The notes under the pieces were generated by a model. The model saw only the letters and a program-made list of their open reading frames with translations, made no database searches and was not told the DNA's origin. Shown here piece by piece: positions 18,767 to 42,600 of a DNA stretch of 64,000 bases. The stretch is from NCBI RefSeq assembly GCF_002750855.1, contig NZ_NWUC01000001.1:744001-808000 (forward strand). The letters run 5' to 3'. Numbering within the stretch: the stretch's first letter is position 1; each line of letters starts with the position of its first letter. The DNA comes from Neopararhizobium haloflavum (lineage in GTDB: Bacteria; Pseudomonadota; Alphaproteobacteria; Rhizobiales; Rhizobiaceae). The position numbers were made by a program, and so were the translations under genes.

Positions 18767-19098
18767 CAGACGAGCGCCCCGCCGCCGAAGGAGAAGAACG
18801 ACAGGAAGAAGCTCGATGCCGCGAACGCGATGCTGAGTCCGAAGACGATCTGGATCAGCTTGCGGAAACCGCCGCCCGTGTCGCCGAAGGCCAGCGTCAG
18901 GCCGGTGATGATAATGATGATCACGGCCATGATCTTGGCGACCGGTCCCTCGATGGACTGGAGGATTTGTTCCAGCGGCTGTTCCCACGGCATCGACGAC
19001 CCGGATGCGCGGGCAGCGGGCGCGAGCATCAGGCTGATGACGAGGGTGGAGGCGACAGTCGCAATATTGCGCGTGCCGCGCGAGACGATGCGGATCAT
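18766..19098 (-). CDS. trbC: TrbC, VirB2-like conjugative pilin precursor
   Basis: 110 residues: a signal peptide up to about 'ARASG', then a short loop and two hydrophobic helices with 'MPWEQPLEQILQSIEGPVAK' and 'AFGDTGGGFRKLIQIVFG', the hallmarks of TrbC/VirB2 pilins. It is the main pilus subunit and overlaps trbB by four bases. Confidence 0.94.
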   Translation of the reverse strand: MIRIVSRGTRNIATVASTLVISLMLAPAARASGSSMPWEQPLEQILQSIEGPVAKIMAVIIIIITGLTLAFGDTGGGFRKLIQIVFGLSIAFAASSFFLSFFSFGGGALV

Positions 19099-20075
19099 GA
19101 AGGGTCTCCTGTCCTGACAATGGCTGGGATGATGCGGTAGTCGCCGTCCGGGCCGAGCCCTTCGACGCGGGCGAGTTCCACCAATCGGCGCGCGGAGCCA
19201 CGGCCGGCAAGGACGGCGACGAGGTCGATGGTCTCGGCGATCAGCGCGCGCGGGACCGTTACGACGGCTTCCTGGATGAGCTGTTCCAGGCGGCGCAGCG
19301 CGCCGATGCCGGAGCCGGCATGGATGGTGCCAATGCCGCCGGGATGGCCGGTGCCCCAGGCCTTGAGCAGGTCGAGGGCTTCGGGACCGCGCACTTCGCC
19401 GATGGGGATGCGGTCGGGGCGCAGGCGCAGCGACGAGCGGACCAGATCGGAAAGCGTGGCGACGCCATCCTTGGTGCGCATGGCGACGAGATTGGGCGCG
19501 GCGCATTGCAGCTCGCGCGTGTCTTCGATGATGACGACGCGATCGGCCGTCTTCGCCACTTCGGCGAGCAACGCGTTGGTCAGCGTCGTCTTGCCGGTCG
19601 AGGTGCCGCCCGCCACGAGCATGTTGGCGCGGGACGCGACGGCGTCGCGCAGGCTCGACGCCTGATCGCCTGACATGATCCCGGCGGCGATGTAGTCGTC
19701 GAGGGTGAAGACCGCGACGGCCGGTTTGCGGATGGCGAAGGCCGGCGCGGCGACGACGGGTGGCAACAGCCCCTCGAACCGCTCGCCGGTTTCCGGCAAC
19801 TCGGCAGAGACGCGTGGGCTGCGAGCGTGAACCTCCGCGCCGACATGGTGCGCGACGAGGCGCACGATGCGCTCGCCATCGGCGGCGGACAGGCGCTCGC
19901 CCGTATCGGAAAGCCCTTCGGACAGGCGGTCGATCCACAACCGCCCGTCCGGGTTCAGCATCACCTCGACCACGGCCGGGTCTTCGAGAAACCGCGCGAT
20001 GGCCGGACCGAGTGCCGTGCGCAACATGCGTGCGCCGCGCTGGATGGCTGGTGGACTGTGGTGTTTGGCGATCAT
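19095..20075 (-). CDS. trbB: TrbB, VirB11-like T4SS ATPase
   Basis: 326 residues of a hexameric traffic ATPase: an N-terminal domain ('[20 protein letters not shown]'), Walker A '[12 protein letters not shown]' (near residue 150), an Asp box, Walker B-like '[19 protein letters not shown]' and the His box '[10 protein letters not shown]'. It is the first gene of the trb operon. Normally the CopG gene lies just upstream; here a 3-kb insert separates them. Confidence 0.96.
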
Positions 20076-20549
20076 GTCGGCCCCGGCTTCTGGCGGGGAC
20101 GCGACGGTGGATCCCCGGATCGGGATCGATTAAGAGAGGCCGAAGTCCGGCCGTTTCAATAGAAATTCTGAAGCGTAGTAGCGTGGCGTGCAAAGACTGG
20201 AAGGCGGCGGCCTGGCCCGCTTAATCGACCGCTCGAATTGAATCAGCTTGGCGGCCCATTGATCTGCTTTCGACCCCATTGTCGCCGTTTAGCCCTCTGC
20301 GGTCATCGCCCAAAACTTGCCGTTCGTTGCGCATCAATTGCCGTTTGAGCGGGGCCGATATCCGAGTCCACTGCTATCACACGCAACGCTTAAGCAGACA
20401 GTTGGGGAATGCCGCGGCCGGACCATTTGCGGAGCGGATTCTTGGGGGACACTGGGTTCCGGTGAGATTCGATGTTTTGGCTCCGTTCAACCCAGAGATG
20501 CCTTGGCAGGGTTCCCGACATCTGATTTGTAGTCAGAGGGGGAAAGCTG
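20076..20549 (+). other. 474-base region without a gene between trbB and the GHKL ATPase gene
   Basis: No convincing coding frame was seen. It holds a small perfect hairpin (GGCCG-AAGTC-CGGCC, 20138-20152), one arm of an inverted repeat (20238-20251), and probably the trb promoter on the minus side and the promoter of the GHKL gene on the plus side. Composition falls from the GC-rich trb style to an AT-richer style at about 20150-20250, consistent with an insertion junction there. Confidence 0.5.
20238..20251 (+). repeat. left arm of an inverted repeat flanking the GHKL/nuclease insert
   Basis: TTGAATCAGCTTGG here pairs with the reverse complement of the right arm at 23095-23109, TTCAATCAGCTTAGG: one mismatch and one extra base. 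The two arms flank the two-gene insert exactly. Chance occurrence cannot be excluded. Confidence 0.4.
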
Positions 20550-22526
20550 ATGATCGATGACACTACATTCCAGGCGAATCTAATCAGGCGCGTGCATAAT
20601 CTCGCACTCGGACCATCAACCCCATCCAATTCGTTGGTTCCGCTTTGGGAAGCCATCTACAACGCACTTCATGCTATTCAAGATCGCTTCGGCGAAGAAT
20701 GGGCAACCCGCGGCAAGATCAATATTTCGCTTATCGACCTAGAATCGACCAATCCATCCATTGAGATTCGGGACAACGGCATTGGCCTGAACAAGGACAA
20801 TTTCAACTCTTTCAAAACCTATGACAGCGACCACAAGGAATCTCGCGGGGGCAAGGGCCTCGGGCGCCTCTCATGGTTGAAAGTGTTCGCCGAAGCTCAT
20901 GTCGCTAGTCATTACGTGCAGGACGGTGATCTGCTAAGGCGCTCTTTCACGCTTGTACTCGATAATGAGAAGCCCTTGGCAGATTACTCAGTGGAAGTTG
21001 TCAGTGGCATTGATCCCGGTACGACCGTAATCCTTCGGCGCATGAAAGCGGAATATGCCAAGCATTTCCCGACCAAGTTCGACACCATCGTACGCAAGGT
21101 CGTAGCGCACTTTCTTCCCTACCTCATGTCGCCTGTAAGACCTACGATCACTATCGAGGGCGCGGCAGACCTTATTGAGCTTAGCGAATACCTGAAAGAA
21201 AAGGAGCTGGCGCTCAGCTCTATCTCGCTCACCATAAACGACGAAATCACGATTGAGCTGGAACATAATCTGCTTGAGAAGTCGGTCGTCGAGGGCAAGG
21301 CTGCTCACAAAATCTACCTCGCCGCACATGGTCGCGTCGTTACCGAGGTAGATATCGGCTTGGCGCTTGGACTTGTAACCTACATTGATAGAGACAGGCG
21401 CTCCTACGCCTATGCCGGCGTCCTTTCAGGCAAAATCTTCGACGATTCCGTAAATTCTGAGCGGACGGCGTTTGACCTGGATGCCGAGTCGCTTGAGACC
21501 ATTAAACGGAGGACCTTTGAGGTTATCCGTGAGGTACTCTCGGCCCAGATTGACCGGGTGATTCAGAAGCAGGCGGATATCACCAAGTCCGTCATCAAGA
21601 AGTATCCGCGCTACGCATATCTCGTCGATGATCCCAAAGAATTCGTCGTATCGAGCGTGCCACGAAATTTCCGCACTGCCGAGCAGATTTACCAGCATCT
21701 TGCGGTGCTGGATTACCGAGACAATAGGGATATCGAGCGCAAGGTTGAAGTGCTTTCCAAAACCGAGCCCCGGGAGGAAGACCCCGTAGAAACGGGTGTT
21801 GCAGAGTTGCTAGGCCGCCTTACGGAGCATGAATTCTCCGTCCTTGCGGACTACACCGTCCGCCGCAAGATCGTGCTGGACCTTCTCGAAAAGCGCCTTC
21901 AGTACAAGCCCGATGGCACGATGAGGCATCATTCAGAGGAGGCACTCCATAGCTTCATCGTTCCGATGCGCGTAACCAACAAGGAAGTCCACGTCGATAA
22001 ACACAATCTTTGGATTGTGGACGATAAGCTGACCTATTACGAATACTGGGCGTCCGACAAAGCGCTAAAGAAAATCGTCGCCGAGCATACCTCCTCAGAT
22101 CGCCCGGACGTATTGCTTTTTGCAGGGAGGTCGGCCTACCACCGGCCTGGCACTGACCAGCCTGTGGTGATCGTCGAATTCAAAAAGCCGGTGCGTACTG
22201 ATTACGACGAGGAGGAGAACCCCTTCGTTCAGATATACGGCTACATCGAAGATTTGCAGAGCGGTCGCATCCTCGACAAGAACGGCGGCCAGATTCAGGA
22301 AGTTACGCCGAATACGCCCTTCTTCTGCTACATCATAGCCGATTTCACCCCGAACATGCGAAGATGGATTAAGCTCGCGCAGATAAATGTACCGCTTCCG
22401 GGAGGAGGCGGTTTCTATGGCTATAATCCCGACTATCGCTGCTTCGTGCAGGCACTTAGCTACAAATACGTCCTGAAGGATGCACGCCTGCGGAATGAAG
22501 CATTTTTCAAGCAGCTCAAGATATAG
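20550..22526 (+). CDS. GHKL (Bergerat-fold) ATPase with C-terminal PD-(D/E)XK-like domain; candidate defence protein
   Basis: 658 residues. The N-terminus has all Bergerat ATP-binding motifs: N box E34-AIY-N38-ALH, G1 'DNGIG' (75-79) and G2 'GGKGLGR' (100-106), as in MutL/MORC/Hsp90-type ATPases. A middle transducer-like part follows, then a helical linker. The C-terminal 150 residues look like a restriction-type nuclease: 'RPDVLLFAG' then 'PVVIVEFKKP', giving Asp near 520 and E-x-K at 543/545. It carries neither the topoisomerase nor the Hsp90 domain set. The next gene starts eight bases later and is also nuclease-like. Base use is AT-richer than the trb genes. The function is inferred as phage or plasmid defence by ATP-gated DNA cleavage. 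Confidence 0.75.
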   Translation: MIDDTTFQANLIRRVHNLALGPSTPSNSLVPLWEAIYNALHAIQDRFGEEWATRGKINISLIDLESTNPSIEIRDNGIGLNKDNFNSFKTYDSDHKESRGGKGLGRLSWLKVFAEAHVASHYVQDGDLLRRSFTLVLDNEKPLADYSVEVVSGIDPGTTVILRRMKAEYAKHFPTKFDTIVRKVVAHFLPYLMSPVRPTITIEGAADLIELSEYLKEKELALSSISLTINDEITIELEHNLLEKSVVEGKAAHKIYLAAHGRVVTEVDIGLALGLVTYIDRDRRSYAYAGVLSGKIFDDSVNSERTAFDLDAESLETIKRRTFEVIREVLSAQIDRVIQKQADITKSVIKKYPRYAYLVDDPKEFVVSSVPRNFRTAEQIYQHLAVLDYRDNRDIERKVEVLSKTEPREEDPVETGVAELLGRLTEHEFSVLADYTVRRKIVLDLLEKRLQYKPDGTMRHHSEEALHSFIVPMRVTNKEVHVDKHNLWIVDDKLTYYEYWASDKALKKIVAEHTSSDRPDVLLFAGRSAYHRPGTDQPVVIVEFKKPVRTDYDEEENPFVQIYGYIEDLQSGRILDKNGGQIQEVTPNTPFFCYIIADFTPNMRRWIKLAQINVPLPGGGGFYGYNPDYRCFVQALSYKYVLKDARLRNEAFFKQLKI

Positions 22527-22534
22527 GCTGCACC

Positions 22535-23071
22535 ATGGAAGACCGTGAGATTTTGGCCGGTCTGGTGGCTTCCACGATGCCGCTCATGGCCGACGAGCGG
22601 TATGGCCGCTTAAAGATCCGCGAACGTCCTATCATGCATCGGATTGCCGTGAACCTCGAACAATACTTCTCCAACTGGGAGGTGGATACGGAATACAATC
22701 GCCACGGTGACGACGTGAAGCGCCTTCAGCGCCTCAGCGGTGGAACGAAGAACATTGAGCCGGACATCCTCGTCCATATCAAAGGCGAACCCTTGGCCAA
22801 TCTGCTGGCGGTGGAGATAAAGCTCTCGGACAACAATAATATCGATGACGATATTTTTAAGTTGGAGGGCCTTACGCACCCGGATCAAGGCTTTGTTTAC
22901 CCGGTTGGCGTGCTCCTACAGCTCGACTTTGCCGGGAAGGCTGTTCTCATCTGCGACGTGTTCAGGGCCGGGGGACAGAATGAGGAACTAACCGGGTGGC
23001 TCCGCGATGCATTCGAGAAGGCTATCGAAGACTTGAAAAGGCCCTCGAGGGGCTGCGTGAGAGGGACTTAG
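22535..23071 (+). CDS. PD-(D/E)XK-like nuclease partner of the GHKL ATPase
   Basis: 178 residues. The core is 'EPDILVHIKG' (Asp77) followed by 'LLAVEIKLS' (E94-x-K96), the spacing seen in PD-(D/E)XK enzymes, preceded by a helix-rich N-terminus ('RPIMHRIAVNLEQYF'). It lies eight bases after the ATPase stop and clearly shares its transcript. The stop is reached in a less family-like tail. No annotated family comes to mind. A catalytic or a structural role in the two-gene system are both possible. Confidence 0.65.
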   Translation: MEDREILAGLVASTMPLMADERYGRLKIRERPIMHRIAVNLEQYFSNWEVDTEYNRHGDDVKRLQRLSGGTKNIEPDILVHIKGEPLANLLAVEIKLSDNNNIDDDIFKLEGLTHPDQGFVYPVGVLLQLDFAGKAVLICDVFRAGGQNEELTGWLRDAFEKAIEDLKRPSRGCVRGT

Positions 23072-23094
23072 TCCTGTGCGCTGGTTTCAGCCGG

Positions 23095-23109
23095 CCTAAG
23101 CTGATTGAA
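23095..23109 (-). repeat. right arm of an inverted repeat flanking the GHKL/nuclease insert
   Basis: CCTAAGCTGATTGAA, the counterpart of 20238-20251, 23 bases after the stop of the nuclease-like gene. A short hairpin (CCTCC-TTAGCT-GGAGG, 23168-23183) follows at the end of the convergent CopG gene and may act as a weak terminator for either strand. Confidence 0.4.
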
Positions 23110-23189
23110 CGGCGGCTTTCTCGCTCACCCGCTTGAAGGCTGCCATTCCGCTTCCCACCAAAAGCCACCTCCTTAGCTGGAGGAGGACC

Positions 23190-23618
23190 TCAATGGTCAG
23201 ATGGAGCCACATCTTCCGCGATTTCCTGGCTGAGCTTCGGCCCTTTTGCCAGCCTTCGGCCAAGTGCGGTGACGAACCTCTCGTATCGTTCGCCTGCCTT
23301 GGCGCGCGCCGCCTGCGCCGCAGGCTCCGGCAAAGCGGGCGTGGTCGCCAGCCAGAAGCGGATAAACACGGCGAGGCTTTCCACCGAGATGCCGGTATCG
23401 CGTTCCATCCTCGTCATGCGGCGGTCGATCTGGTCGAGGCGCCGAGCGATCGCCGCCTCCCGGCGTTCCTCGCCATCGGGCGACAGAAAGGACGCGAGTG
23501 CGGCTTCCGCCACGAGCGACCGCGACTGACCCCGCCGGGCCGCAAAGTCGGCGAGCATCGCCATGATGTCTGGGTCGAGATAGACGGAAATCTGTGCTTT
23601 CTTCTTTCTCGCCGCCAT
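23190..23618 (-). CDS. CopG-type ribbon-helix-helix regulator of the tra/trb region
   Basis: 142 residues. The N-terminus is a ribbon-helix-helix ('KKAQISVYLDPDIMAMLADFAARRGQSRSLVAEAAL'); the rest is helical with many charges. In this class of ICE the gene sits between traG and trbB, and here it still follows traG by two bases. It probably autoregulates the transfer genes or helps relaxosome-T4SS coupling. Confidence 0.85.
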   Translation of the reverse strand: MAARKKKAQISVYLDPDIMAMLADFAARRGQSRSLVAEAALASFLSPDGEERREAAIARRLDQIDRRMTRMERDTGISVESLAVFIRFWLATTPALPEPAAQAARAKAGERYERFVTALGRRLAKGPKLSQEIAEDVAPSDH

Positions 23619-23620
23619 GG

Positions 23621-25606
23621 TCAGAGGTCCATGCCGTCATTCGGATCGAGCGAGACCTGACGCGCGATGCCCTGCACGACGCGTGAGAGGCGTCGGTTGC
23701 GGATGGCCGCGTCCTCGGTTTCATCGTCCTGCTCGATCTCGAATTCGTTCTCGACCGGTCGAGCATTCTCAACCGCCATGGTACGCCACAATTCAGGCTG
23801 GCGGCGCCGCTCCGATGCGGTCGGATCATCAGCATCCTCTTGGGAGGTGACTGGCGCGGAGTCACCGATCGGGCGCGCAGGGATCGGCAGCACAGTCCAG
23901 TCGTCGGATTGCGGAGTCTCCAAGGCGCAGAGTTTGGGTGGCGGCAGGACACGCTCGCGGAAGCGATCGTCCTCGTAGTAGCGCGCCTTCTTCGCCCGGA
24001 TGGGCGGAGTGCCGGCCGCCAGGACGATCTCGTCGGCTGGCGGGAGTTGCATGATCTCGCCCGGCGTCAGCAGCGGCCGCGCCGTTTCCGACCGAGAGAC
24101 CATGAGGTGTCCCAGCCAGGGAGAGAGGCGATGGCCGGCGTAGTTCTTCATTGCCTTCATTTCGGTCGCGGTGCCCAGCGCATCGGAGACGCGCTTGGCC
24201 GTCCGCTCGTCGTTCGTCGCGAAGCTGACGCGGACGTGGCAGTTGTCGAGGATGGAGTTGTTCGGCCCATACGCCTTCTCGATCTGGTTCAGCGATTGGG
24301 CGATCAGGAAGGCCTTCAGGCCATAGCCGGCCATGAAGGCGAGAGCGCTCTCGAAAAAGTCGAGGCGTCCGAGGGCCGGAAACTCGTCGAGCATCAGGAG
24401 CAGGCGGTGTCGCGCGGTCTTCGCGTCCAGTTCCTCGGTCAGGCGCCGCCCGATCTGATTGAGGATCAGCCGGATCAGCGGCTTGGTGCGGTTGATGTCG
24501 GACGGCGGCACGACGAGGTAGAGCGTGGCTGGCAGCTTTTCGCCGACGATGTCGGCAATCCGCCAATCGCAGCGCCGCGTCACCTCGGCGACGACGGGAT
24601 CGCGATAGAGCCCGAGGAACGACATGGCGGTGGACAGGACGCCCGACCGCTCGTTGTCGGATTTGTTCAAGAGCTCGCGCGCCGCGCTGGCGATAACGGG
24701 ATGCGTTCCGGCATCGCCAAGATGCGCGGTCTTCATCATGGCGGCGAGCGTCGCCTCGATCGGGCGTTTCGGATCGGAGAGAAAGGCGGCGACACCCGCC
24801 AGCGTCTTGTCGGCCTCGGCATAAAGCACGTGCAGGATCGCGCCGACCAGCAGTGAGTGGCTCGTCTTCTCCCAGTGATTGCGCTTCTCCAGAGATCCCT
24901 CGGGATCGACCAGGATGTCGGCGATGTTCTGGACGTCACGCACCTCCCATTCGCCTCGCCGGACTTCCAGCAGCGGATTGTAGGCAGATGATCTGGCGTT
25001 GGTCGGATCGAAGAGCAGGACGCGACCGTGCATCGAGCGGAAGCCGGCGGTGAGCTTCCAGTTCTCGCCCTTGATATCGTGAACAATGGCCGAGCCCGGC
25101 CAGGTGAGCAGCGACGGAACGACCAGGCCGACGCCCTTGCCCGAGCGTGTCGGGGCAAAGCACAGCACGTGCTCCGGCCCGTCATGGCGCAAATAGGAGC
25201 GATCGTATCGGCCGAGCACGACGCCGTCAGTGCCGAGCAGACCCGCGGTCCGCATCTCCTGCCTGTCGGCCCAGCGCGCCGAACCATAGGTGTCGACGCG
25301 CGACGCCTCCCGCGCCCGCAGGACGGACATGGCGATCGCGACGGCGATGGCGATGAACCCACCAGACGCGGCGATGAAGGCGCCGCGCACGAAGATGTCG
25401 GGCGCATAAGCGTCGTAGAAGTACCACCACCAGAAGAAGGCTGGTGGGTGATAGACCGGCCGGCCGGCGAGCATGAACCAGGGTTCGCCGAGTTGCGGCT
25501 GGAAACCGAGCGACCAGGCGACATACTGCGTCGCCCCCCAAATCGTCGCGAGGACGATCAAGAAGACGGTGAGGATCGGACCCCAGAGGATCTTGGTCGA
25601 TGACAT
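23621..25606 (-). CDS. traG: TraG/VirD4-type T4SS coupling protein
   Basis: 661 residues: N-terminal membrane helices ('ILWGPILTVFLIVLATIW', 'AFFWWWYFYDAY'), then the RecA-like motor with Walker A 'APTRSGKGVGLV', Walker B 'LLLMLDEFPALGRL' and 'LIAQSLNQIEKAYG'. It recruits the relaxase-DNA complex to the Trb channel. The ATG at 25606 begins MSSTKIL, as in homologues; the in-frame extension upstream overlaps the relaxase gene's end and was dropped. It lies 22 bases after the relaxase stop. Confidence 0.95.
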   Translation of the reverse strand: MSSTKILWGPILTVFLIVLATIWGATQYVAWSLGFQPQLGEPWFMLAGRPVYHPPAFFWWWYFYDAYAPDIFVRGAFIAASGGFIAIAVAIAMSVLRAREASRVDTYGSARWADRQEMRTAGLLGTDGVVLGRYDRSYLRHDGPEHVLCFAPTRSGKGVGLVVPSLLTWPGSAIVHDIKGENWKLTAGFRSMHGRVLLFDPTNARSSAYNPLLEVRRGEWEVRDVQNIADILVDPEGSLEKRNHWEKTSHSLLVGAILHVLYAEADKTLAGVAAFLSDPKRPIEATLAAMMKTAHLGDAGTHPVIASAARELLNKSDNERSGVLSTAMSFLGLYRDPVVAEVTRRCDWRIADIVGEKLPATLYLVVPPSDINRTKPLIRLILNQIGRRLTEELDAKTARHRLLLMLDEFPALGRLDFFESALAFMAGYGLKAFLIAQSLNQIEKAYGPNNSILDNCHVRVSFATNDERTAKRVSDALGTATEMKAMKNYAGHRLSPWLGHLMVSRSETARPLLTPGEIMQLPPADEIVLAAGTPPIRAKKARYYEDDRFRERVLPPPKLCALETPQSDDWTVLPIPARPIGDSAPVTSQEDADDPTASERRRQPELWRTMAVENARPVENEFEIEQDDETEDAAIRNRRLSRVVQGIARQVSLDPNDGMDL

Positions 25607-25628
25607 GGCAGCGCTCCTGCTCGATTGT

Positions 25629-27368
25629 TTAGAGGCCGAGCCCCCGCTTGCGACCGAAGCTCCAGTCGACGCCGCCATCTCCTCGGGCGACGCCGGAGAC
25701 ATGACGGCCGAGCTGCTTTTCCAGCGAGGGTGACCAGGGCACGAGTTGAAAGCCGAGACCGTCGGCGATCATCGCGAAGCGGCCGGAGGCGAGCGTGAAC
25801 CGCTGGCGGTAGGTGCCGGCGATGAACTCGCCGGTTTCGCCGCGATTGAAGGGTTGGCCGATCTCGCCCGACAGTTTCTCGCCCAGCGCGTCGAGTTCGC
25901 GGCGACGCAAGGTCTCGATCAGCCGGCGGGCGAAGACGACGCGGCGGCCTTGGCGCTCCGCCAGGCCCTCGCCAACCAGATGGTCGGTGCGATCATCCAT
26001 GGCTTGCCGCACCTCGGCGCCGAAGCCGGCCTCCGACAGGGCGGCGGGCTCGCGGGCGATCGCCTGCCGGTCGAGCCAGGTGGCGCCCGATGCGGTGATC
26101 TGTGCAGAGAGGTCGAGATCGGACCGGACGGCGAGCGCTACCCGCCGTTGGCCGCGCGCGTCGTCGAACTTGCGGAGTTCGACGACCGACCCAGGCGCGC
26201 TGTCGCCGGCCGCGTCAAGGTCGGGCAGCTTGATGTGATGGGTGCGGCCGTCCACGCCGTCGATGACGGCATAAGCAGATCCCTTCAACTCGTCGTCGAG
26301 GCCGCGTTCCACCAAGCGCCCGACGATCGGAGCCTCAAGGCTCTCAGCCGCGAGTACATAGCTCGCCGAGCCGCGCTCGATGCCACTTGCCGTAAGCGCG
26401 CGGTGCATGCGCTTGATGATGTCGCCGCGCTCGCCCAGCTCGCGGAGCGTCGCCTCGGCCCTGTCGTCGATCATCCATTGGCCGGGACCGACCTGCTCGG
26501 CGAGGCCGAGCGTCTCGAGCTTGCGTAGGCGTCCGACCTTCTGCGCATGAAACGCGTCGGGCTGCCGGCCGGGCATGGGGGCGGTGTCGATGATCCCGGT
26601 CTCGTGGGCGTCACGGACGAGCTGCCGATCGAGCTGCGTCCAGCGTTCCGCCTGCACCTGCCGTTCGATGGTGCGGCGGATGTCGTGATCGGTCCGCGGC
26701 CCGAGCTCCTGGGTGATGAGGTTGCGGGTGCGATCACGCATCCCGTCCTTGATGTAGTCGCGCGCGATCACGAGGTCCTGCCCGTCGTCGCGCACGCCGC
26801 GCACGATCAGGTGGACGTGGGGATGTTCGGTGTTCCAGTGATCGACGGCCACCCAGTCGAGGCGAGTGCCGAGATCTTTCTCCATCTGGCGGGCGAGGAC
26901 GTTGGTGAAAGACCGCAGGTCTGACATTTCGAACGCGTCGTCGGGCGAGACGATGAAGCGGAAATGATGCCGATCGTCCTCGCACCGCCCGGCGAAGGCC
27001 AAACCGTCCGCATTCTCCACCGCCGGCCCGAACAGCCGCGCCTTCTCTGCATCACGGGTAACGCCCTCGCGGCGCAGATAGGCGAGATGGGTGCCAAGCG
27101 AAACCGAGCGCACCGAATGGCGAACCACGCGGGCCTTGATGACGGCGCCGCGTGAGCGCGCGGTGATAAACCGGTTCGCCTGGATGCTGGCGCGCTGGCC
27201 ATGCCCGAAGCGCGACCGGCCGCCGGAAACGATACGGCCCGATCGTGACACACCGCCGCCTGCCTTCCTGGCTGCTGCAAGTGCCTGCGCGACGAAGGGC
27301 CGGGCCGATTGTGCACGGGAGGAGCGGATGCGGCCCGGCCGGATGGTGAAGTCCCATTCATCGGCCAT
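25629..27368 (-). CDS. relaxase of the RlxS/VirD2-like DUF3363 family
   Basis: 579 residues. The catalytic half has 'RSRGAVIKARVVRHS', 'HLAYLRREGVTRD' and the metal-binding His cluster 'DHWNTEHPHVHLIVRG'. The second half is the DUF3363 region ('FDDARGQRRVALAVRSDLDL', 'ATWLDRQAI'). It nicks oriT and pilots the strand into the recipient. The ATG at 27368 gives MADEWDF; codons upstream overlap the repeat region. Putative oriT repeats lie directly upstream. Confidence 0.92.
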   Translation of the reverse strand: MADEWDFTIRPGRIRSSRAQSARPFVAQALAAARKAGGGVSRSGRIVSGGRSRFGHGQRASIQANRFITARSRGAVIKARVVRHSVRSVSLGTHLAYLRREGVTRDAEKARLFGPAVENADGLAFAGRCEDDRHHFRFIVSPDDAFEMSDLRSFTNVLARQMEKDLGTRLDWVAVDHWNTEHPHVHLIVRGVRDDGQDLVIARDYIKDGMRDRTRNLITQELGPRTDHDIRRTIERQVQAERWTQLDRQLVRDAHETGIIDTAPMPGRQPDAFHAQKVGRLRKLETLGLAEQVGPGQWMIDDRAEATLRELGERGDIIKRMHRALTASGIERGSASYVLAAESLEAPIVGRLVERGLDDELKGSAYAVIDGVDGRTHHIKLPDLDAAGDSAPGSVVELRKFDDARGQRRVALAVRSDLDLSAQITASGATWLDRQAIAREPAALSEAGFGAEVRQAMDDRTDHLVGEGLAERQGRRVVFARRLIETLRRRELDALGEKLSGEIGQPFNRGETGEFIAGTYRQRFTLASGRFAMIADGLGFQLVPWSPSLEKQLGRHVSGVARGDGGVDWSFGRKRGLGL

Positions 27369-39614: not shown

Positions 39615-42600
39615 CACGCGGCCTCGCGTTCGCTGATGCGCTCGACCGGATAGGCGTCGAGCAGCTTGCCGAGGATGGCCGGACCGGAGGCGTCGACCGG
39701 CACGAAGAAGCGCAGCTTCCACGAGATGATCTCACCGAACAGGCCATAGGCACGCAGCCGGTCGCGCATGGCTTCGGTGAAGCCCGACAGCTCGATACGG
39801 TTCGCCCCCATGACGCGCGCGCGACGAAGCTGGAGCCCTTCGGCAAGGTCGAGGATGGTGCGGCCGTCTACCAGAGCGGCATAGGCGTCCTCGCTGCCGA
39901 GGCTGGTCGTTCCAGTCGAAGTGGCGTTCGCGGCCCAGGCGGGCGAGACGCGGCGGCCAATGACGCGTTCTCCGTCATCGGTCTGAAGCCGATAGACCCG
40001 CGTCGACTCGTTCGGCAGCCGCTTCCATACTGGCAGGAGCAATCCGCTTACCATGTGGATCGTGCCCTCGGTGAAGGCGGGCACCTCGTCGACTTCGCGC
40101 CGCCAGGCGGCCGCGAACGTATCGTGATCCGCTTCCTGCCAATGGCTGTCCGCCATCATGGCGATGGTCGCGTGATGCTGCTCCATCGGCCGTACCAGTC
40201 GAATACGCCGTTCGATCTCGCCATCGTCAAGCATGATGGACGGCGCCGGAGCCTGAACGGCGGCGCGGCCCGAACGTGCGTTGACGAGCAACCGGGCCTG
40301 CGCGTCGTTGAGCCAGCCGAGCGCGGCATCGAGCAGCATCGGACGGTTGCGGCGGCGCTCGGTGATGGTGAGCAGGCGGGTCTGCGCGCCGGTTGCCGGG
40401 TGCGTGTAGATGGTCGCGCGCTCGGTGACGACGAAGCTCTCCGCCGTTAGCGTCTCCAGCCCGACGTCATAGACGCCGCTGGCAATGGCCCCGGCCACCT
40501 TGGCGTCGAGCAGTTGCTCGAAGGCGGTGAAGAGGATGCCTTGCAGCTCGATGGTGAGCGCCAGCAACCTGTTCAGGAAGGTGGTGATCGGCGGCAACTC
40601 GTCCTTGATGCCGCCTGCGTCCATCAGCTTCAGACCGGTCGCTGACTCGAAGCGTTGGAGAGAGCAACCCTCCACCTTGCCGCGCACGATCAGGAGATAG
40701 AGCTGGCGCAGCGCATCGCGGGCGTAGCTCGATTCCAGGTTGTCCTCGGGCCGGAACAGGCCTTGGCCGCCGGTCTGGCGCTGGCCGCGGGTGATCGCGC
40801 CGAGCGTATCGAGCCGGCGTGCGATCGTGGACAGGAAGCGCTTCTCGGCTTTGACGTTCGTGGCGATCGGGCGGAACAGCGGAGGCTGCGCCTGGTTGGT
40901 GCGGTTGGTGCGGCCGAGGCCCTGAATGGCGGCGTCGGCCTTCCATCCCGGTTCCAGCAGGTAATGCACTCGCAGGCGCCGGTTCTTCGCCGACAGCTCG
41001 GCGTGATAGCTGCGGCCGGTGCCGCCGGCGTCGCTGAACACGAGGATGCGCTTCAGGTCGTCCATGAAGGCGGCGGTTTCGGCGAGGTTGGCAGACGGCG
41101 TCCGGTTCTCGACGGCGAAGCGTTCGCCCTTGCGGACGATCCGCCGGGAGCGGCCCGTCACCTCGGCCACCATGTCGGTGCCGAAGCGCTGCACGACCTG
41201 GTCGAGCGCGCCCGGAACCGGCGGCAGGGACGCGAGACGTTCGATCAACTCGTCACGACGCGCGACGGCTTCGCGGCTCTCGACGGGCTGGCCATCACGA
41301 TAGACGGGACTCGACGACAGATTGCCCTCGCCATCCGTGAACGGCTCGTAGAGCTGGACAGGGAAGGAATGGGCCAGATAGTCCAGAACATATTCGCGCG
41401 GCGTGATGTCGACACGAACGTCGTTCCAGTCCTCGGTGGGGATCTCGGCCAGACGACGTTCCATCAGAGCCTCGCCCGTCGAGACGATCTGCACGACGGC
41501 GGCGTGGCCATCCTCGAGATCGCGCTCGATCGAACGGATCAGCGTCGGGGTCTTCATCGAGGTGAGCAGATGGCCAAAGAAGCGCTGCTTGGCGCTCTCG
41601 AAGGCCGAACGGGCAGCGGACTTGGCCTGCCTGTTCAACGTGCCGTCGTTGCCGGTGATGTTGGCGGCTTGCATCGCCGCGTCGAGATGATTGTGGATGA
41701 CGGCGAACGCGCCGGCATAGGCATCGTAGATATCTCGCTGATTATCGGTCAGCGCGTGCTCGATCAGTTCATATTCCACGCCATCGTAGGACAGCGAACG
41801 GGCGGTGTAGAGCCCGAGCGAACGCAGGTCGCGGGCGAGCACCTCCATGGCGGCGACGCCGCCTTCCTCGATCGCCTCCACGAATTCCGCACGAGTGGCG
41901 AAGGGGAAATCCTCGCCGCCCCACATGCCGAGCCGCTGGGCATAGGCGAGATTGTGGACGGTGGTCGCGCCGGTCGCGGAGACATAGATGACGCGCGCGC
42001 TCGGCAGGGCGTGCTGGAGCCGCAGGCCGGCGCGTCCCTGCTGCGAGGCGGCCGCGTCGCCGCGTTCTCCCTTGCCGCCTGCGGCGTTGGCCATGGCGTG
42101 GCTTTCGTCGAAAATGATCACTCCGTCGAAATCGGCGCCCAACCAATCGACGATCTGGCGGACGCGCGAAACCTTCTCACCACGATCGTCGGAGCGCAGC
42201 GTGGCGTAGGTTGCAAATAGCACGCCTTCGGACAGCGTGATCGGCTTGCCCTGCGGGAAGCGCGACAGCGGCGTGACCAGCAGGCGCTCCATGCCAAGCG
42301 CAGACCAATCGCGCTGCGCATCCTCGATCAGCTTGTCGGACTTGCTGATCCAGACCGCTTTGCGGCGCCCACGCAGCCAGTTGTCGAGGATAATGCCGGC
42401 GGACTGACGGCCTTTCCCGGCGCCGGTGCCGTCGCCGAGCATGAAGCCGCGCCGGAAGCGCACGGTGTTCTCGGCGTCGGCCGGGGCCGCCTGCACGAGA
42501 TCGAAGGTGGCATCGACCGTCCACGATCCAGCGAGAAAGTCGCAATGGGCTTCGCCCGCGTAGATGACGGTTTCGAGCTGGGCGTCCGATAGCACGCCGA

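Follow-up and report, generated by a model that had tools for sequence, protein, structure and literature searches.

A paraMORC3-type GHKL ATPase gene and an optional PD-lambda-3_A-related gene as a probable mobile defence cassette in a conjugation operon

Two adjoining plus-strand genes, designated p1 and p2, interrupt a minus-strand conjugation operon within the window, i.e., the whole stretch of 64,000 nucleotides analyzed, and raise the question of whether they represent a new kind of defence system. A sequence-only reading of the locus had proposed an ATP-gated system with two nuclease modules. Based on the results described below, the locus is probably a mobile anti-phage or anti-plasmid defence cassette composed of a paraMORC3-type protein (p1) and an optional, putative accessory nuclease (p2), defence being its most likely function. 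The pair seems to bring known defence parts together anew and not to be a system of an entirely new kind, since the p1 family is known to stop phages and p2 is related to a known defence component. Novel here are the combination of p1 and p2, present in three distinct genomes, and its position at a site within a conjugation operon that receives cargo.

Two plus-strand open reading frames (ORFs) encoding 658 and 178 residues and separated by eight bases were recovered at the same coordinates as in the sequence-only reading (Table 1). In 200 mononucleotide shuffles of positions 20400-23099, the longest ORF comprised 239 aa, so that p1 is not a chance product; p2 falls within this range and, since an ORF of its length could by itself arise by chance, its reality rests on its homologues. 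The leader of p1 aligns in five genomes, similarity falling off strongly beyond it on the upstream side, and promoter-like boxes (TTGGCA at 20503-20508 and TTTGTA at 20526-20531, 17 bases apart) were read by eye within it. p2 is probably translated from the same message as p1. The pair is AT-richer than its surroundings, as had been noted (GC of 0.52-0.555 compared with about 0.63-0.70 in adjoining DNA), and does split trbB from the CopG-like gene and traG: the corresponding spacing is short and empty in 48 of the 59 related plasmid junctions listed, gene order having been read for two of the 59 and the others being judged from match span. At eight plasmid junctions, homology to the backbone stops at 20159-20218 (at 20040 in one of them) and restarts at 23205 at the earliest. 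No tRNA genes were found within the 64-kb window.

Table 1. Features of the insert and its neighbours (coordinates of the window).
Feature	Position	Strand	Evidence or remark
trbB, left neighbour (backbone)	19095..20075	-	ORF calls and plasmid junction comparison
Insert in the trb/tra backbone, limits approximate	20219..23204	.	Limits of backbone homology
Left arm of 12-base inverted repeat	20238..20249	.	Not considered functional
Cassette in common with Rhizobium vallis, 90.7% DNA identity	20406..23062	+	blastn
p1 leader, conserved, promoter-like	20487..20549	+	Aligned in five genomes
p1, paraMORC3-type GHKL ATPase-nuclease (predicted), 658 aa	20550..22526	+	ORF, HATPase_c, alignments, AF2 model
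p1 residues 6-342, predicted GHKL ATPase and S5/transducer-like middle domain	20565..21575	+	
p1 residues about 455-658, nuclease-like domain, E463, D520, E543-x-K545	21912..22523	+	Invariant residues, helix-strand order of the model
p2, 178-aa homologue of PD-lambda-3_A, small and PD-(D/E)XK-like; E30, D77, E94-x-K96	22535..23071	+	PADLOC, alignment A2, AF2 model, fold comparison
Right arm of 12-base inverted repeat	23098..23109	.	Not considered functional
CopG-like gene, right neighbour (backbone)	23190..23618	-	ORF calls and plasmid junction comparison
traG (backbone)	23621..25702	-	ORF calls and plasmid junction comparison

The Bergerat residues previously read from p1 (E34, N38, D75-N-G-I-G79 and G100-G-K-G-L-G-R106) are all present, as are E543-x-K545 in p1 and D77 and E94-x-K96 in p2. 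Within a 23-row alignment, E34, N38, D75, G77, G79, G103 and G105 are invariant. The Pfam model HATPase_c matched p1 at 1.6e-5 with 25.7 bits, just below the Pfam cut-off of 26.4, and matched 22 of 23 family members at E 0.1. In fold comparison, the alignment of residues 6-342 of the AF2 model (pLDDT 87.2) spans the first two domains of Hsp90, MORC and Topo VI-B, the second of which is of the S5 type. Structure prediction, proposed earlier as a check, agreed with a GHKL fold for this part and was compatible with a PD-(D/E)XK-like fold for p2; for the C-terminal domain of p1 the order of secondary-structure elements is consistent with a restriction-endonuclease fold, the fold lists being taken up by the GHKL part. 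Within that domain, E463, D520, E543 and K545 are invariant in alignments A1 and A4 (23 and 48 rows). Its profile had no match among PDB sequences at E 1, and the predicted nuclease fold therefore rests on the motif and on the secondary structure of the model. Searches with p1 yielded two weak enolase matches from the PDB by sequence (E 0.28 and 0.39) and none from PADLOC at E 1; for other p1 homologues, matches in Pfam and PADLOC beyond GHKL models were weak and scattered. As judged from sequence and model, p1 is a GHKL ATPase joined to a nuclease-like domain.

The suggested relationship to MutL/MORC-type ATPases (Iyer/Aravind) proved to be the right lead. The paraMORC3 family is described as patchily distributed, often encoded by a standalone gene, and composed of an N-terminal GHKL domain, an S5 domain and a C-terminal E-D-ExK signature (Iyer, Abhiman and Aravind 2008; PMC2292703). 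p1 shares the GHKL domain at its N terminus, in which the ATP-binding motifs are intact, the S5-type domain and the C-terminal signature; it differs from the family as described in being followed by p2 in three genomes, and that description names no such partner. Furthermore, VcSduA, reported in 2025 as a type I-D Shedu protein, combines GHKL and PD-(D/E)xK domains and provides single-gene phage defence that requires the ATPase and a nuclease residue, as deduced from mutants (PMC12137116). Compared by description and not by sequence, VcSduA and p1 have this architecture in common, and E27/K557 of VcSduA are numbered nearly as E27/K556 in two Vibrionaceae p1 relatives, which are about 30% identical to p1; unlike the cassette, VcSduA is described without p2. 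Catalytic positions among the homologues are E27/K556 (L034 and L226), E27/K558 (L230) and E25/K550 (L229), compared with E34/K545 in p1. Since paraMORC3 and VcSduA already have such an architecture, p1 alone is not new, and the earlier statement that no named defence system has this composition fails for p1 by itself. Of this architecture, VcSduA is the only protein found to have been tested in the literature consulted, though such proteins are widespread.

Classification of p1 as a plain Shedu protein was set aside: the Pfam model SduA_C (DUF4263, PF14082) did not match p1 at E 1 and matched one of 23 homologues, at E 0.089. An hhalign comparison of p1 with SduA_C, in which the E-x-K stretches lined up, gave a probability of 22% (E 0.00097). 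Shedu structures are absent from the fold list of p1, which covers residues 6-342 only and thus excludes nothing. Proteins combining GHKL and SduA_C (e.g., L244 and L245) share the two-domain idea with p1 but represent a separate family, which the p1 profile misses at E 10; their catalytic residues are spaced by 478 and 477 positions, compared with 501-549 in the p1 family.

p2 had been read as a second nuclease module; it is not an unknown one but a relative of component A of PD-lambda-3, matching the PADLOC model PD-Lambda-3_A (PDLC03986) at 8e-13 over residues 17-114. PD-lambda-3 is a phage defence system of E. coli (Vassallo et al. 2022; PMC9519451), compared here through its PADLOC models. 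It resembles the pair in this component and differs in component B (TIGR02391/Hypoth_ymh), which is absent here; p1 stands in its place and is the sole partner gene of p2, since the CopG-like gene that follows lies on the other strand. In alignment A2, E30, D77 and E94 are conserved in 20 of 20 rows, and position 96 is occupied by K in 14 rows, p2 included, and by R in six. The AF2 model (pLDDT 88.4) suggests a PD-(D/E)XK-like fold, and comparison of the p2 profile with the PDB by sequence gave nothing or little. hhalign comparison of p2 with the Shedu domain gave a probability of 0.5%. Descent of the p1 nuclease domain and p2 from a recent duplication obtained no useful support (hhalign probability 8.3%).

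The p2 family occurs in three different defence-like arrangements, which suggests that nuclease modules are swapped among sensors. One partner is an uncharacterized 229-aa protein that rhizobial plasmids encode next to AbiH or AbiV genes; its interpretation as a form of PD-lambda-3_B was unsupported (BLASTP E 2.4). Among viral contigs, no relative was found with p2 alone as query, alignment A2 recovered one locus and alignment A3 three loci, one of them on the same contig. Within the order, 14 of 20 p2-bearing genomes belong to one genus, five of them with p2 on a single-contig genome; this distribution resembles that of a gene resident on the chromosome more than that of a defence cassette and counts against the defence reading.

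Searching for the gene pair across genomes, as had been recommended, recovered it in the source genome, Rhizobium vallis and Kaistia defluvii. Each site is different, which suggests a mobile cassette; between the 18-kb R. vallis locus and the window, the cassette was the sole blastn match. Relatives of p1 are widespread: 571 of them were confirmed when 84,980 species genomes were scanned by pattern, and a search of phage records with p1 gave one record. The gene adjoining a second paraMORC3 copy had no Pfam match at 0.01. p2 adjoins two of 80 genome relatives of p1 (downstream DNA of 600 bases or more being available for 75) and none of 32 relatives on viral contigs (26 with at least 600 bases downstream). 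Moreover, two p1 genes at 84% identity, from A. tumefaciens and Ciceribacter, are not followed by p2. p2 is therefore an optional add-on, and p1 and p2 are, by this gene-neighbourhood evidence, not an obligate two-gene system. What held of the proposed two-nuclease system is the make-up of p1 and the predicted PD-(D/E)XK-like fold of p2, and both proteins have relatives in proven anti-phage systems.

These counts, together with p2 relatives occurring alone or with other partners, favour a reading in which defence is the work of p1 by itself, p2 being a passenger or a stand-alone defence gene acting independently. It is opposed by the preservation of gene order, strand and short gaps (8, 9 and 24 bases) at three unrelated sites, by the p2 proteins of these genomes being nearest to each other (66-83% identity, compared with at most 40% to 17 other aligned relatives), and by amino-acid-changing changes in p2 being fewer than silent ones. 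We give this reading a little short of an even chance.

For the preferred reading, a defence cassette with an optional p2, sequences and models provide the co-occurrence of the two genes at three unrelated sites, the conservation of active-site residues, the relationships to known families and the predicted GHKL and S5 domains, and a mode of action may be proposed. Two p1 subunits would dimerize via their ATP-bound GHKL domains to form a clamp, which would close on invading DNA and allow the C-terminal PD-(D/E)XK-type domain to cut; p2, as an accessory nuclease of the PD-lambda-3_A family, may add to or widen the attack. A more far-reaching version, in which p1 and p2 form one two-nuclease machine of an ATP-driven paraMORC3 clamp and a swappable PD-lambda-3_A module, is put forward tentatively and may well not apply. 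This module has been combined with three or more partners that seem unrelated to one another, namely the TIGR02391 protein in PD-lambda-3, the 229-aa protein in rhizobial plasmids and paraMORC3 here. On this reading, p2 would be a portable effector for different sensors, and paraMORC3 could act either together with it or on its own. Closely related cassettes that carry or lack p2 offer a direct way to ask what the added nuclease does.

Alternatively, p2 could be a killing effector, released or activated by p1 upon sensing infection and damaging host DNA or RNA in abortive infection. This idea draws on PD-lambda-3, with its p2 homologue, serving as the abortive-infection control in the SNIPE paper, and on WonAB, in which an ABC ATPase is described as controlling a PD-(D/E)xK partner whose overproduction is toxic (PMC12137116). 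WonAB, compared by description only, resembles the pair in comprising two genes for an ATPase and such a partner and differs in that WonA is an ABC ATPase and p1 a GHKL protein. A complete nuclease motif is present in p1 itself, p2 is missing next to most of the p1 relatives examined, and VcSduA was protective at every phage dose tested, which its authors took to mean that it restricts phages directly and spares the host (PMC12137116), all of which makes the killing role rather unlikely.

Location within the trb/tra operon, and the fact that, of 56 plasmid records in which a p1 relative occurs, 29 are typed as conjugative, would be in line with a cassette serving the conjugative element by destroying rival plasmids or further copies of that element entering the cell. 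The 18-kb loci of the nearest copies, in R. vallis and Kaistia, show no tra/trb ORFs by eye, and VcSduA is reported to target phages (PMC12137116), so that such service is considered quite improbable. A role in DNA repair or housekeeping (MutL-like or chromatin function), suggested by the GHKL and nuclease domains of MutL-type repair proteins and by the recurrence of the p2 family in one genus, is very hard to reconcile with the patchy spread of p1 relatives (26 of 397 genomes of the order), their occurrence on plasmids and viral contigs and their restriction and CBASS-type neighbours.

The 12-base inverted repeat TTGAATCAGCTT / AAGCTGATTGAA, in which 11 of 12 bases pair (92%), had been taken as the boundary of the element. 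This role was rejected as unsupported: when the two flanks underwent mononucleotide shuffling, a comparable pair arose in 23 of 300 shuffles, and the 12 related loci examined contained neither arm at up to one mismatch. In literature from 2015 on trbB or integrative-conjugative hotspots, no title or abstract opening concerned the trbB-copG/traG site. This junction is a recurrent cargo site, other cargo comprising PD-T7-3, SoFic and HEPN-AbiV genes, and represents a practical spot for finding more defence genes in conjugative elements.

The two open reading frames (ORFs) read from the window (table below), p1, a paraMORC3-type GHKL ATPase-nuclease, and p2, a small PD-(D/E)XK-like protein homologous to component A of PD-lambda-3, agree in strand, size and spacing with the sequence-only reading. 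The length of p1 is far outside chance, as the longest ORF in 200 shuffles of the region comprised 239 aa (median 118); since shuffles reach up to this length, the reality of p2 rests on its homologues. The pair was also found to be AT-richer, as claimed, with a GC content of 0.52-0.555 vs about 0.63-0.70 on both sides. Furthermore, third-position GC amounts to 0.64 and 0.70 in p1/p2 compared with 0.75-0.84 in trbB, copG and traG, and these low values together suggest a foreign origin of the region. Upstream (5') of p1, about 63 bases are strongly kept in all five genomes compared (window, R. vallis, Kaistia, A. tumefaciens and Ciceribacter), and this stretch includes TTGGCA-N17-TTTGTA, which is promoter-like by eye.

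Genes of the cassette in the window
Gene	Position	Strand	Description
p1	20550..22526	+	ORF, 658 aa
p2	22535..23071	+	ORF, 178 aa; 8 bases 3' of p1

VcSduA, an anti-phage protein described as type I-D Shedu, has the same architecture as p1; according to its authors, similarly organised proteins were formerly named paraMORC3, and its phage protection was abolished in the mutants E27A and K557A (PMC12137116). The matching residues are E27 and K556 in two Vibrionaceae homologues 30% identical to p1, E27/K558 in an Acinetobacter and E25/K550 in a Paraburkholderia homologue. With a catalytic-residue spacing of 530, which fits the 501-549 of the p1 family and not the 478 and 477 of loci L244 and L245, VcSduA probably groups with p1, a likeness judged by residue numbering. 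L244 and L245, which were missed by the p1 profile, combine GHKL with a match to the Pfam Shedu nuclease domain SduA_C (27.5 bits and 22.3 bits, the latter below the cut-off) and represent a second, separate GHKL-nuclease architecture outside the p1 family. An assignment of p1 itself to Shedu was rejected because the SduA_C domain test was negative.

In order to evaluate how often the genes go together, the p2 profile was run over the best 80 of 571 p1 relatives confirmed in a wide scan of genomes. The proposed gene pair recurs in R. vallis and Kaistia defluvii (p1 95% and 86% identical to the window copy), but in only these two of the 80 loci; it was found in none of the 32 viral-contig loci with p1 relatives. 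At least 600 bases downstream of the p1 match were available in 75/80 genome and 26/32 viral loci, the remaining 5 and 6 being too short to show p2 fully. Ciceribacter and the A. tumefaciens plasmid pAt1D1108b carry p1 (84% each) without p2. Across 397 Rhizobiales genomes, p1 relatives occur in 26, p2 relatives in 20 and both in four, vs 1.3 expected if independent, computed with both genome draws taken as one set. They are adjacent in two of the 397, namely the own genome and G244, whose copy is identical to that of Kaistia across both genes. The 56 listed p1 plasmid records and 35 listed p2 records have no accession in common.

The p1 tree of five genomes, ((window, R. vallis), (Kaistia, (A. 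tumefaciens, Ciceribacter))), has branch supports of 94/95, 99/98 and 100/99. Two p2 gains would require as many events as one gain and one loss; the latter history seems to fit best, given that the p2 genes of these genomes (window, R. vallis and Kaistia) are each other's nearest relatives and occupy the same position. Window and R. vallis share a block (20406-23062, 90.7% identity) with no further match outside it, and therefore p1 and p2 moved together.

Both proteins are under constraint (dN/dS ~0.06 for p1 and ~0.27 for p2), occur together at three sites, and p1 has GHKL and S5 domains with invariant residues. ATPase- and nuclease-dependent phage defence is known for the same architecture in VcSduA (PMC12137116). 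It is likely that p1 is an anti-phage or anti-plasmid nuclease. A p1 dimer may act as a clamp, with DNA as its presumed target, and p2 could be an accessory nuclease; the odds that p2 works together with p1 are about even. The earlier statement that no named system has this composition stands for the combination, which is not named in the open-access literature as far as searched (subscription papers and preprints being outside its scope), but not for the parts: p1 belongs to a known family, and p2 is homologous to a component already described. The novelty is consequently a combination of known parts.

In related plasmids, trbB adjoins copG/traG. That the pair parts these genes was corroborated by empty spacing in 48 of 59 related junctions listed (60 of 1371 records were listed, one being the p1 match itself; judged by span); the other 11 hold inserts, six of them distinct, with six rows carrying one and the same. 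Among 20 genome sites examined, of 21 strong ones and with the own site excluded, five junctions are empty, eight are occupied and seven remained unclassed, having no copG within the stretch taken. The junction in the second trb copy of the own genome (contig C20) is empty. Counting once a hydrolase gene found in L190 and L199 (first 120 residues alike, DNA not identical), at least 13 distinct inserts occur besides the p1-p2 cassette, and the junction (window 20159-23212; L188, L189, L207 and others) is a recurrent cargo site. Inserts include PD-T7-3 in A. vitis (5.7e-152), SoFic (2e-103) with PDC-S12 (4e-33) in P. saliphilus, a HEPN_AbiV protein in L207 (9e-8 in Pfam, with PADLOC giving nothing at 0.01), a PIN protein (L210), DUF5946 (L215) and AAA_28 (L192). 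No match was obtained for L193 or for a 219-aa protein encoded in L191 in the insert scan, which left out ORFs of L201, L202, L206 and L212, the hydrolase and the L191 MFS gene, among others. By eye or name, the other inserts appear to be transport, regulatory or unknown genes. Clear defence matches were obtained for 3/13 distinct inserts, an uncontrolled count over the ORFs scanned.

Around p1 relatives, gene names of the restriction, methylase, CBASS-type, Abi, TIR, HEPN or UvrD/AAA kind occur in 9/11 annotated plasmid regions, a hand-picked, uncontrolled set of unequal stretches; L032 and L036 lack such names. On plasmids of V. fluvialis and Salinivibrio, type I restriction genes immediately precede the p1 relative, apart from a Shedu gene that intervenes in V. 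fluvialis. The own genome encodes a second paraMORC3-type gene (G000:C30:327904-329916), 31% identical to p1 and with no p2 in its 5-kb locus, as well as a gene with a clear SduA_C domain (105.6 bits; G000:C32:212046-212558). Moreover, a paraMORC3-type gene related to p1 (97% of p1 covered at 25% identity) lies at 40028-42007 of phage record ON245412.1, overlain by a feature annotated as amidase.

Relatives of p2 have other partners. On rhizobial plasmids, a gene for a second protein comes after the p2 relative (229 aa in L058 and L060, with a shorter annotation in L059), and AbiH (L058, L059) or AbiV (L060) comes next, a possible undescribed defence operon; the L058 copy of the 229-aa protein has no Pfam or PADLOC match, and L040 is arranged alike by eye. 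The E. coli p2 relative is partnered by TIGR02391, component B of PD-lambda-3, and ThiF and Mov34 genes lie near that of Xanthomonas; no named defence partner directly adjoins those of Aurantiacibacter and Photobacterium. Within the order, 14 of the 20 p2-bearing genomes belong to one genus (five being single-contig), in which an M20 peptidase gene adjoins one p2 copy. All six alignment rows with R96 come from this genus, and the exchange of lysine for arginine at the catalytic position perhaps indicates a changed role.
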